Shown here piece after piece: positions 16,189 through 20,269 of a DNA stretch of 64,000 nt (within the stretch, counting starts at the first letter, position 1; every line of letters starts with the position of its first letter). This stretch comes from a virus: the IMG/VR virus record IMGVR_UViG_3300032246_001368, positions 1 through 64,000 of that record; one strand, written 5' to 3'. The position numbers and the translations under genes were made by a program. Under the pieces are notes generated by a model. That model saw only the letters and a program-made list of their open reading frames with translations. It was not told where the DNA came from and did no database searches.

Positions 16189-16905
16189 ATGAATGTCAAA
16201 AACCCTAAATCAATTGTAATTTACAGCGGAGGACTCGATTCTACTTGTTTACTTTACAGAATTAACAAGACGTCAGAGGTTTTGTGTTTAATCTTTAACT
16301 ATGGTCAAAGACATTCCATAGAGATAGAAAGAGCTATTGAAAATTGTATTAAATTAAATGTTCCATATAAGGTGTTGGATATATCCTTTTTTAAAGATAT
16401 AGCATCCTCATCGGCTCTGTTAGATACGAGTTTGGAAATACCTAAAATAAAAGATGTTGCAGGCCATGCACAGCCCTTGTCTCATGTTCCTAACAGAAAT
16501 ATGATATTTTTATCAATTGCAGCAGCCATAGCAGAATCTATTAAAGCTCCAAATATTTACTATGGAGCTGCTGAAGTGGATACACATAGTGGCAATTGGG
16601 ATTGTTCTTTAGATTTTTTAAAATATATTAATCAAACTTTAAATTTAAATAGGTCAAATCAAGCACAGGTTGTTGCACCATATATTACCTTTTCTAAAGC
16701 AGATATTATCAAGGACGGGGTGAAAAATGGAGTAGATTTTACTAAAACGCATACCTGTTACAACGGCAAAAATGAAGGATGCTTAGAATGTTCAGCTTGC
16801 TCTAGTAGAGTACAAGGTTTTATAGAAGCACGGTTAATAGACCCTATCCCCTATATAAAACAAATAGAATGGGCGAAATATAATTGTCAACCAATTATAT
16901 TTTAA
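16189..16905 (+). CDS. queC: QueC, 7-cyano-7-deazaguanine (preQ0) synthase
   Basis: A 238-residue enzyme that converts 7-carboxy-7-deazaguanine to preQ0 using ATP and ammonia. The PP-loop motif SGGLDS is at residues 13-18. FNYGQRH, then PLSHVPNRNMIFLSIAAAIA, then YYGAAEVDTHSG are QueC signatures. The zinc site is the four Cys of CYNGKNEGCLECSAC near residue 190. Length is normal. In phages QueC usually serves modification of the phage's own DNA with 7-deazaguanines, blocking host restriction, rather than tRNA queuosine. A class II glutamine amidotransferase and a DUF366-like protein lie 1.5-2.7 kb downstream, supporting that role. FolE, QueD, QueE and a DpdA-type transferase are not in the window; they may lie elsewhere or come from the host. 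Very confident on the enzyme. Confidence 0.92.
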   Translation: MNVKNPKSIVIYSGGLDSTCLLYRINKTSEVLCLIFNYGQRHSIEIERAIENCIKLNVPYKVLDISFFKDIASSSALLDTSLEIPKIKDVAGHAQPLSHVPNRNMIFLSIAAAIAESIKAPNIYYGAAEVDTHSGNWDCSLDFLKYINQTLNLNRSNQAQVVAPYITFSKADIIKDGVKNGVDFTKTHTCYNGKNEGCLECSACSSRVQGFIEARLIDPIPYIKQIEWAKYNCQPIIF

Positions 16906-16922
16906 ATATATTTTTTTTAAAG

Positions 16923-16930
16923 GATAAATA
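16923..16930 (+). promoter_or_regulatory. Late-type promoter box GATAAATA before a homing gene
   Basis: GATAAATA, seven of eight bases matching the T4 late box, five bases before the ATG at 16936 and after a T8 run. This would place transcription start at the start codon of the GIY-YIG gene. Confidence 0.45.
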
Positions 16931-16935
16931 TTTGC

Positions 16936-17640
16936 ATGACATTTGCAAACACCAACATTAAAAATAATTATTTAATATATAAAATCAATTTTGAAAAGAA
17001 TTATTATTACATAGGGGTTAGTAATAATTTTAAAAGACGTTTAACAGAACACAAATATCATAAAGCACATAAAATATTAAATTATGAATTTTTAGAAATA
17101 AATTTAAGTGAGGAAGAAGCTTATAATAAAGAAAAAAGTATAATTACAGATGATTTAATTAAAGATCCTTTATGTTTAAATCAAACTCGTGGAGGCAGAC
17201 ACCCGTACAATAAAAGATTAAATGTTCCACATTCAAAAGAAACAAAAGAAAAAATTTCCAATACCAAAAAAAGACAAGCTTCATTGGGTTTATTATGGGT
17301 GCAACAAGAAAAAAATAAAAACATTATTAAGGAAAGATGCTTAAGAGGTGATGATAATCCATCACGCCGTCCAGAAGTAAGAGAAAAAATAAGATTATCT
17401 AAATTAGGACCCCTCAATCCTCAATATGGGAAAAGGGGAACTATGTTAGGTAAAAAGGCATCACCTGAAACAAAACATAAGCAATTAATGAAATTAGGAT
17501 TCAAAATAAAAACACCAGTTGGAATTTTTATAGGAGCGGAAACCGCGGCTAAACATTACAAAATAAGATCCAAAACAGTTCTTAGTAGATGTCGTAATCA
17601 AAAATTTCCAGAATGGCAAATTTTAGGAAAAGGTGAATAA
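16936..17640 (+). CDS. GIY-YIG homing endonuclease with NUMOD-type DNA-binding region
   Basis: A 234-residue protein. LIYKINFEKNYYYIGVSNNF followed by KRRLTEHK (about residues 13-40) is the GIY-YIG nuclease core with the YIG strand and the catalytic Arg region. GGRHPYNKR and HSKETKEKISNTKKR (about 75-110), then GPLNPQYGKRGTMLGKKASP, are NUMOD3-type minor-groove-binding motifs. The end, FIGAETAAKHYKIRSKTVLS followed by RCRN, resembles the helix-turn-helix (NUMOD1/IENR1-like) of phage homing endonucleases. Coding DNA is strikingly A-rich compared with queC and the amidotransferase gene. It lies between queC and a glycosyltransferase gene, as expected of an inserted homing gene in an operon, and does not disrupt either. 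Confidence 0.85.
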   Translation: MTFANTNIKNNYLIYKINFEKNYYYIGVSNNFKRRLTEHKYHKAHKILNYEFLEINLSEEEAYNKEKSIITDDLIKDPLCLNQTRGGRHPYNKRLNVPHSKETKEKISNTKKRQASLGLLWVQQEKNKNIIKERCLRGDDNPSRRPEVREKIRLSKLGPLNPQYGKRGTMLGKKASPETKHKQLMKLGFKIKTPVGIFIGAETAAKHYKIRSKTVLSRCRNQKFPEWQILGKGE

Positions 17641-17675
17641 AATATATTTTATAATATAATATCAGATAAAATTCC

Positions 17676-18359
17676 ATGGACAACGTACAATTGCAAACCT
17701 TTATAAAACAACATCATATAGTTTGTGCTACACCTCTCTCATTAGCTGAGTTTAATGAGAAGAGTAAATTAGCAATATTTCTAGACAAGACAGAATATAA
17801 AAACTATACTATTATAGACAATAATACTACTAGTTTATCCAAAGTATATAATTCCTTTATTACAGAAGAAAATAAAGATAAAAATATTATATTCATTCAC
17901 GATGATGTATTAATTGAAGACTTATTTTTTACAGAAAAGCTTGATATAGCTTTTGAAAAGTATGAAATAGTAGGATTAGCAGGAAGTAAGAAGACGGATC
18001 TTACTAAACCAGCAGCATGGCATTTAATGAGTGCCAAAGAAGATATGGTAGGTGAAGTAGGTCATGCATATCAAGGTAAATCATGGACTACAGTATTTGG
18101 ACCTACTAATTCAAGAGCCTTAGTGTTAGACGGATTATTCATAGGAGTAAATGTTTCAAGACTTTTAAAAACAGATACTAGGTTTGATGAAGATTTTGAT
18201 TTCCATCACTATGATATTTCATTTTGTTTAAGAGCTAATAAAAATAAATTAAAAATGGGTGTTGCTCCTATTAAAGTAACTCATTTTGGGTTAGGAGATA
18301 GTATGAATACTCCAGAATGGAATTCCAGTGCCGCAAAGTTCAATCTAAAGTATAATTGA
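17676..18359 (+). CDS. GT-A-type glycosyltransferase-like protein
   Basis: A 227-residue protein. IIFIHDDVLIEDLFF (about residues 67-81) has the Asp pair typical of the nucleotide-sugar and metal site of GT-A glycosyltransferases. VGLAGSKKTDL, AAWHLMS, VLDGLFIGVNVS, then FDEDFDFHHYDISFCLRANK and THFGLGDS complete the pattern of small family-2-like transferases. There is no membrane segment, so it is probably cytoplasmic. It is encoded between queC and the amidotransferase, two bases before the latter, raising the possibility that it acts on modified DNA, but a role in decorating virion or host surface glycans is equally open. Substrate unknown. Confidence 0.65.
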   Translation: MDNVQLQTFIKQHHIVCATPLSLAEFNEKSKLAIFLDKTEYKNYTIIDNNTTSLSKVYNSFITEENKDKNIIFIHDDVLIEDLFFTEKLDIAFEKYEIVGLAGSKKTDLTKPAAWHLMSAKEDMVGEVGHAYQGKSWTTVFGPTNSRALVLDGLFIGVNVSRLLKTDTRFDEDFDFHHYDISFCLRANKNKLKMGVAPIKVTHFGLGDSMNTPEWNSSAAKFNLKYN

Positions 18360-18362
18360 TAT

Positions 18363-19031
18363 ATGTGTGGAATATACAGCGGTCTATCACCTATAGAATT
18401 TTATCATTTATATAAACATAATCAATCCAGAGGAAGTCATAGTTCTGGGTTTCTTTATATAGAAGATGAAGGATATCAAATTACAAAGACCTCTAAAAAG
18501 GATTACACATTCTTTCCAGATATAAAGAACGGATTTTATCTAGGACATAATAGAGCACCTACTACTAGTGGAGATACTAAAGGGCTTTCTAGTTGTCACC
18601 CATTTTCTTTTGGAAGAGCCATAGCAGCACATAATGGAATATTAACCAATACAGAAGCTCTAGAAAAGGTATATGGAATTAAATTTGATGTTGATAGTCA
18701 ATGGATTCCTTATCTTTATGATATAATGCTTAAAAAAACACATCTAAATCTAAAACCGGAAGAAGCTTTTAGATATGTGTTGGAAGATTTAAAAGGCACA
18801 TATGGAATTTGGCTTTATGATATTGAACAAGGATGTGTGTTTGTAGGTCGTGGTGATAATACAATATACTGGGACGGTAAGAATACTTCCTTCTCATCCA
18901 TTGCAGATGATACATATAAGAATTTAATGCCGGATGGTGCTATCTATATGAAGACCAAATCATCTGAAGTTTTTATTGATATAAATGCAGATAGAAGGTT
19001 GAAAAGAGAACAGAAGTACTTTATGATATAA
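18363..19031 (+). CDS. Class II (Ntn) glutamine amidotransferase
   Basis: A 222-residue protein starting MCGIYSGLSP. Cys2 becomes the N-terminal nucleophile after Met removal. SRGSHSSGFL, GHNRAPTTSGDT, then HPFSFGRAIAAHNGILTN are the class II glutaminase motifs. The protein is glutaminase only, with no synthase domain, so it must hand ammonia to a partner. In several phages a class II amidotransferase fused to QueC converts preQ0 to an amidino (archaeosine-type) base in DNA. Here the two activities are separate genes in the same cluster, so this protein probably feeds ammonia to a 7-deazaguanine enzyme. It is followed three bases later by the DUF366-like gene. Enzyme class is sure; the substrate is inference. 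Confidence 0.8.
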   Translation: MCGIYSGLSPIEFYHLYKHNQSRGSHSSGFLYIEDEGYQITKTSKKDYTFFPDIKNGFYLGHNRAPTTSGDTKGLSSCHPFSFGRAIAAHNGILTNTEALEKVYGIKFDVDSQWIPYLYDIMLKKTHLNLKPEEAFRYVLEDLKGTYGIWLYDIEQGCVFVGRGDNTIYWDGKNTSFSSIADDTYKNLMPDGAIYMKTKSSEVFIDINADRRLKREQKYFMI

Positions 19032-19034
19032 TAT

Positions 19035-19607
19035 ATGAGTTATTTAAAACAAGACTACAACGGCGATTTGATTCACAAGAGATTTGGATATGAGTATTTC
19101 AAGAAAGAATATAATCCTCTAGGTGTTATTATTGCTTTCCGAGGTAACATGGACGTTACGGATAATTTAATTGATCTAGAAGATAAGCTGAATAATGATT
19201 ACATTTATTCTGAAGATGCATTAAATTTCTGTTGGGAGATTCCTAATATCTGCCCTATTGGAGCAGTCTTCTTCCAGAGACTCTTTGCTCGTTATATTGG
19301 AGATGAATTGGCTTGTGGTTCTTATGGCAAGCTTGATGTTAAGGTAGACGGAGATGATATTATGATTCGTAAGCCAGGAGATGATTCCTTTGGCAAGGCA
19401 AGTGTTAGTATCACTAAGGTCATTGATGGTAATGTAGCTATAGGACATCTTGGTTTGAATATTAATGCAGGGCCTAAAGCACCTTCATTTGCATTCTCAC
19501 TCTTCCTTGATGATGCCACTGCTTCTAATCTTTGCAGACGCGTTAAGGAAATCTATCATGAGACTATAGCAGATTGCTTCATTGCTACTTGCAAAGTGGT
19601 GATATAA
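19035..19607 (+). CDS. DUF366-like protein, possibly in 7-deazaguanine pathway
   Basis: A 190-residue protein. VIIAFRGNMDVTDNLIDLED (about residues 31-50), YSEDALNF, FFQRLFARYI, then KASVSITK, AIGHLGLNINAG and CKVVI at the C-terminus match my recollection of the DUF366 family of archaea and some phages (an AFRG-x-x-DV, then (V/I)DLED, then YSED-type signature). The molecular function of DUF366 is, to my knowledge, not established. It starts three bases after the class II amidotransferase stop, so the two are translated together. That coupling, with queC nearby, suggests a role in making or inserting a 7-deazaguanine base. Family call by eye, moderate confidence. Confidence 0.6.
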   Translation: MSYLKQDYNGDLIHKRFGYEYFKKEYNPLGVIIAFRGNMDVTDNLIDLEDKLNNDYIYSEDALNFCWEIPNICPIGAVFFQRLFARYIGDELACGSYGKLDVKVDGDDIMIRKPGDDSFGKASVSITKVIDGNVAIGHLGLNINAGPKAPSFAFSLFLDDATASNLCRRVKEIYHETIADCFIATCKVVI

Positions 19608-19633: not shown

Positions 19634-20269
19634 ATGAATAATACATATTATGGGTTTATATATCTTTGGGAAAATACACATCCAACAGCAGACAAATATA
19701 AAAAATATATAGGTCAGCATGTTGGATGTGTTGAAGATGGATATATAGGTTCTGGAATAATTTTTTTAAAAAAATTTTATTGTAAAAAATATAGAAATTT
19801 TTGGAAAAGAACTATTCTTGAATATTGTCAAGATCAAACCAAATTAGATGAAGCCGAAAATAAATATATAAAAGATAATAATGCTATAGATAGTGAAATT
19901 TTTTGTAATATAAGGCATGGTGGTAGAACAGGTAAATTAAACCCTTCTTCCATTATAAAAATGAAAGAATCTTTAAAAGGCAGAATACCGTGGAATAAAG
20001 GTAAAAAAACAGGTAAACAATCAAAAAAATTAAAAGAAAAAAGGGTAAAGTCTTTAATGGCTAGTAAACAAATTGAAAGAGAAAAAGATTACGAAATAAT
20101 AATTGATTTAATTTCTGAAAAATCTTTTCTTAAAAGAGAAGATTTACAAAACTCATTTAAAAAGTGGAAAGCAACAAAAAGACTTAATGATTTAATCAAA
20201 ATAAATAAACTAAAAATATTTAAAAATAAAAATGGAGAACATTTTTATACTTTGAATAAATCGTTGTAA
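19634..20269 (+). CDS. GIY-YIG homing endonuclease
   Basis: A 211-residue protein starting MNNTYYGFIYLWEN with ATG at 19634. The frame is open further upstream into the previous gene, but the nuclease core begins exactly here. GFIYLWEN, then KKYIGQHVG and YIGSG (about residues 7-42) are the GIY-YIG motifs. NIRHGGRTGKLNPSSIIKMK, then GRIPWNKGKKTG (about 95-135) is a NUMOD3-like DNA-binding region. The C-terminal 60 residues (FLKREDLQNSFKKWKATKRL) may be a further helix-turn-helix. Very A-rich codons contrast with the neighbouring DUF366-like gene. It sits at the 3' end of the deazaguanine cluster. Likely a free-standing mobile gene. Confidence 0.8.
   Translation: MNNTYYGFIYLWENTHPTADKYKKYIGQHVGCVEDGYIGSGIIFLKKFYCKKYRNFWKRTILEYCQDQTKLDEAENKYIKDNNAIDSEIFCNIRHGGRTGKLNPSSIIKMKESLKGRIPWNKGKKTGKQSKKLKEKRVKSLMASKQIEREKDYEIIIDLISEKSFLKREDLQNSFKKWKATKRLNDLIKINKLKIFKNKNGEHFYTLNKSL

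Follow-up and report, generated by a model that had tools for sequence, protein, structure and literature searches.

In Enterobacteria phage 9g, one of the nearest known counterparts of the system reported here, a Gat-QueC fusion together with DpdA puts dG+ into DNA, with the fused Gat thought to supply the ammonia (PMC6884629). Phage 9g additionally encodes FolE, QueD and QueE, and QueC, QueD, QueE and FolE are likewise present in Campylobacter phage CP220, which is T4-like, and in Flavobacterium phage immuto. We analyzed a stretch of 64,000 nucleotides (hereafter the window; positions 1 to 64,000 of the IMG/VR record IMGVR_UViG_3300032246_001368), which belongs to a 111,583-bp record of an uncultured T4-like phage. 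In it, three genes in a single orientation (all + strand) code for a 7-cyano-7-deazaguanine synthase family protein, QueC (16189..16905), a stand-alone class II (Ntn) glutaminase, henceforth GAT (18363..19031), and a DUF366 protein (19035..19607). With a probability of roughly three in four, these belong to a pathway by which the phage itself synthesizes a 7-deazaguanine base and places it in its DNA, where the modified base probably replaces guanine. Our computations concern gene families, a conserved cassette, co-occurrence and folds, and it is from these that we infer DNA as the target.

Taken together with the genes that its relatives encode, the system shares with that of 9g the upstream steps, the coupling of QueC with a class II glutaminase and a DNA insertion enzyme of the TGT fold. 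It differs in that the glutaminase is separate from QueC and DUF366 has been added; further, the five near-complete relatives considered below use FolE2 in place of FolE, and their DpdA belongs to another subfamily, which is missed by phrog_887. This subfamily is shared with CP220 and immuto; however, unlike the module described here, neither the whole CP220 record nor the scanned 15-64 kb of immuto yielded a match to GAT or DUF366.

The QueC protein is recovered by both PF06508 (E=1.6e-56) and TIGR00364 (172.5 bits against an equivalog cut-off of 150.3), and our alignment shows that it retains the SGGxDS, YxQxHxxE and VPxRN motifs, the CY pair and the four zinc cysteines (motif roles after PMC13329287), in agreement with the first-pass annotation, which had read it as a PP-loop QueC with a four-Cys zinc site. 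The GAT protein starts with MCGI and matches GATase_6 with E=1.1e-5, slightly below the curated cut-off. Since the Cys after Met1 and the Arg, Asn-Gly and Asp residues of the glutamine site (C2, R64, N91, G92 and D111) are invariant in an alignment of nine sequences, it displays the hallmarks of a class II (Ntn) glutaminase. GAT and QueC are two open reading frames with two genes between them rather than a Gat-QueC fusion, and in the relatives they are likewise close but separate. The idea that the Gat-QueC chemistry is here split into separate genes is nonetheless backed by the profile of the cassette GAT proteins, which matches the Gat domain of the 9g Gat-QueC (E=8e-8). This sequence comparison supports GAT as the split-out counterpart of that domain, and it is a probable source of ammonia for the QueC chemistry. 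The third protein matches PF04017 with E=2e-19 (70.2 bits against a curated cut-off of 29.9), which bears out its assignment to the DUF366 family.

The arrangement of these genes is conserved beyond the window. A glycosyltransferase gene (GT; 17676..18359, + strand) precedes GAT, and the GT-GAT and GAT-DUF366 gaps measure 3 bp each. A search with DUF366 returned 445 viral stretches with relatives; among the best 80, which we examined, QueC, GT, GAT and DUF366 occur together as a cassette in 15. A separate search with GAT brought in 42 additional loci, whose GAT identities run from 57 down to 25 percent and which often show the gene order QueC-GAT-GT-DUF366; within 8 kb of GAT we found QueC in 36, GT in 41 and DUF366 in 38 of them. 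In other lineages DUF366 precedes the same T4-like gene block, with varied sugar-metabolism or glycosyltransferase genes upstream, and QueC, GAT and GT are located elsewhere in the genome.

A comparison of near-complete genomes supports a pathway directed at DNA. We set five module-positive genomes (G003, G005, G008, G424 and G425; 177-227 kb) against four module-negative ones (G409, G410, G412 and G413; 195-226 kb), considering the 188 families that at least two of the module-positive genomes share. Only eight families are found in all five of the former and none of the latter, namely QueC, QueD, QueE, FolE2 (PF02649, 3e-64), a DpdA-like protein, GAT, DUF366 and a small zinc finger. This all-or-none pattern supports DNA modification, with GAT and DUF366 as dedicated members, the latter as the first-pass annotation had surmised when it proposed DUF366 as the missing partner in a 7-deazaguanine module. 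The zinc finger, an 85-residue protein of the DksA/TraR type, is also encoded in the record to which the window belongs (70766-71023). Among ten related viral records tested, QueD was detected in nine and FolE in three. In a tree of the helicase, the module-negative sisters fall into two groups among the module-positive phages, and every bootstrap tree needs at least two changes; an approximately unbiased test did not formally reject a single clade for these sisters (p=0.06). Thus, two independent losses of the module are likely but not proven.

The DpdA-like protein of the relatives is 285 residues long. In close relatives its gene adjoins that for the DNA polymerase, whereas in other contigs it clusters with those for QueC, QueD, QueE and FolE2. 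In tblastn searches the protein scored 4e-52 against an immuto protein annotated as a DNA guanine transglycosylase and 2e-36 against a protein of CP220. For its AlphaFold model (pLDDT 91), all ten top matches in the PDB are TGTs, the best with E 5e-8; DpdA (7UI4), which inserts preQ0 into DNA, follows at rank 11. These tblastn and structural matches point to a divergent, DpdA3-type transglycosylase with a TGT fold. We chose the label DpdA3-type because of CP220, using a subfamily name reportedly introduced by Cui et al. 2023; DpdA3 is reportedly able to replace guanine completely. Other routes to a DpdA were less productive. The Pfam TGT searches were negative throughout; as Pfam equally misses the proven DpdA of 9g, these negatives are uninformative. 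Likewise, phrog_887 and phrog_7068 find no DpdA in the relatives, and both together also miss nt-1, HVTV-1 and CP220. The DpdA-like protein has no significant hhalign match to DpdA1. A 439-residue protein beside QueE (G003, 68382-69701) was considered as a DpdA and rejected: it is GT-B-like (phrog_7162) and is present in module-negative genomes.

We accordingly envisage the following pathway. FolE2, QueD and QueE, encoded elsewhere in the genomes of the relatives, would convert GTP to 7-carboxy-7-deazaguanine. QueC would activate the carboxylate of this compound, and ammonia released by the separate GAT would yield an amide, nitrile or amidine. The DpdA3-type transglycosylase, whose gene neighbors that of the DNA polymerase, would then exchange guanine in DNA for the modified base, whose final form is probably the amide (dADG) or the amidine (dG+). 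DUF366 would most likely act on, hold or hand over the C7 carboxyl/amide side chain.

Several clues to this step come from the fold and the wider distribution of DUF366. The model of the window protein (pLDDT 91) finds as its best PDB match 2DDZ from Pyrococcus horikoshii (E 5e-11, TM 0.79), a PF04017 protein of the same fold with no function assigned, in contrast to the link with QueC seen here. Next come the biotin and lipoate protein ligases (Foldseek E from about 3e-5, TM about 0.5), indicating a biotin/lipoate-protein-ligase fold. However, no sequence-profile similarity to BirA was found (hhalign probability 0.3%); hence, ligase activity is possible but not implied by the fold. The family is detected in methanogens and in 174 of 386 genomes from the phylum to which a Gastranaerophilales bacterium belongs; of 30 bacterial loci examined in genomes of this phylum, 24 have QueC immediately upstream of DUF366, which links DUF366 to QueC outside phages too. 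Asp47, Glu49, Asp50, Asp55, Glu68, Asp107, Asp108, Lys121, His138 and Asn142 of DUF366 are invariant. One tentative proposal is that DUF366 is a previously unrecognized 7-deazaguanine enzyme ranging from archaea through Gastranaerophilales to phages, in which the biotin-ligase fold serves to activate the C7 carboxyl/amide or to transfer it and, in these phages, leads to a type of side chain so far unreported in DNA. Alternatively, DUF366 might serve in ammonia handling or as a protein scaffold, with no catalytic step on the base. The failure to match BirA fits such a role, but the many invariant polar residues suggest an enzyme, as does the occurrence of DUF366 next to bacterial QueC with no GAT in the sequenced flank; we consider this alternative unlikely.

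In the literature collection that we searched, no paper links DUF366 to 7-deazaguanine. In a tblastn search of 50,697 deposited phage records, DUF366 was found in no genuine cultured phage; the sole match is Microcystis phage MaAM05 (MW495066.1). The latter shows the order glyS-mtgA-DUF366 along with flagellar and secDF genes, the same as Vampirovibrio contigs L123 and L124, and looks like a piece of bacterial chromosome deposited as a phage genome. DpdL, reportedly described in the same study as DpdA3, was reportedly found in cultured phages, and DUF366 may be a different protein.

A number of observations weigh against a DNA-directed pathway. The substrate-pocket motif YPDC of QueC is NWDC in the window protein, and in E. 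coli QueC Tyr131 of this motif is essential, with Phe partly active (PMC13329287). The QueC of a marine lineage (G008, L108:10536-11288) lacks the CxxCxxC zinc cysteines while QueD, QueE, GAT and DUF366 are kept, so that its reaction may differ. Three of the 42 GAT loci have QueC and GAT with no DUF366 nearby. The record that contains the window has no QueD, QueE, FolE, FolE2 or DpdA-like gene. It is, however, a fragment: aligned gene by gene to the 176.8-kb relative G003, it covers only about 97-176 kb plus 0.3-4 kb of the latter and thus lacks the counterpart of 4-97 kb. The first-pass remark that no DpdA is in view hence holds for the window and its record, which are without that part of the genome, and its call for a search for the remaining genes was answered in part, negatively in the 111.6-kb fragment and positively, with FolE2, QueD, QueE and a DpdA3-type protein, in all five near-complete relatives.

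Finally, since the bacterial QueC-DUF366 pairs presumably use the pathway for queuosine in tRNA, such a pair alone is no proof of a DNA target. The module could instead raise the synthesis of queuosine precursors for host tRNA during infection, leaving the DNA unmodified. Indeed, some known phages carry preQ0 genes but lack DpdA, and these have been proposed to boost host Q (PMC6884629). Yet, a phage DpdA-type protein with the TGT fold is present in every module-positive near-complete genome and in no module-negative one (QueA, QueG and QueH lay outside our search), which makes service to tRNA alone improbable.

The first-pass annotation had further suggested that the glycosyltransferase lying among these genes could decorate the base. 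The protein is of the GT-A type (PF13712, E=3.2e-11), and its position within the cassette at 41 of the 42 GAT loci would favor its adding a sugar to the 7-deazaguanine as part of the module; GT adjoins GAT even in the marine lineage, in which DUF366 is located at another site. But among 78 further GT loci that were fetched, 68 have no QueC, GAT or DUF366 nearby, and QueC was found in none of the 15 records of 78-226 kb in which GT holds the same locus and these partners are missing. Moreover, each of the four module-negative genomes encodes both GT and a GT-B protein. As GT stays in the same place in sister phages that lack QueC, GAT and DUF366, it is not specific to the module, and we reject it as a member in favor of a resident gene of the locus; glycosylation of the 7-deazaguanine by this protein is quite doubtful. 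GT is flanked by module genes on both sides in the window but stands alone at the same place in sisters (17676-18359 versus L190:5253-5930), and the joint disappearance of both flanks may reflect a cassette exchange. Separately, whether or not they carry the module, all nine near-complete genomes encode a GT-B glycosyltransferase close to the DNA polymerase (G003, L117:8382-9701); it could possibly glycosylate another DNA base.

That unrelated auxiliary genes came together here by chance, for which one might cite the varied sugar and glycosyltransferase genes upstream of DUF366 in other lineages as signs of a hot spot, is hardly credible, as seven functionally matching families are all-or-none genome-wide in the nine-genome comparison, which contradicts chance, and the adjacency recurs at 25-30% identity.

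Two further genes of the window are free-standing homing endonucleases of the GIY-YIG/NUMOD3 type. The first (16936..17640, + strand; NUMOD3 2.2e-6, GIY-YIG 3.5e-4, phrog_314 7.9e-20), which went unmentioned in the first-pass annotation, sits between QueC and GT and was not found at that site in relatives L006-L015. The second (19634..20269, + strand; profile matches including phrog_7168, 1.7e-5) is absent after DUF366 in the relatives examined, except L039. Both are local insertions outside the pathway. Elsewhere, the record has T4-type proteins in common with CP220, among them those of the capsid, portal and clamp loader. It also encodes a GMP reductase (101620-102594; PRK05458, E=3.6e-102), unusual for a phage, which may steer guanine nucleotides toward adenine in this genome of 35% GC. 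G003 codes for a short adenylosuccinate synthetase homolog of 332 residues (L114:17381-18379), which might be PurA-like or else PurZ-like, the type associated with 2-aminoadenine.

If the proposed pathway is correct, a whole lineage of uncultured T4-like phages would carry 7-deazaguanine in its DNA by means of a gene set unlike the proven ones, with QueC and the glutaminase split, FolE2, insertion by a DpdA3-type protein and one additional enzyme. DUF366, whose structure has been solved (2DDZ) but which has so far had no function assigned to it, would thereby gain a functional setting in which its role becomes directly testable.

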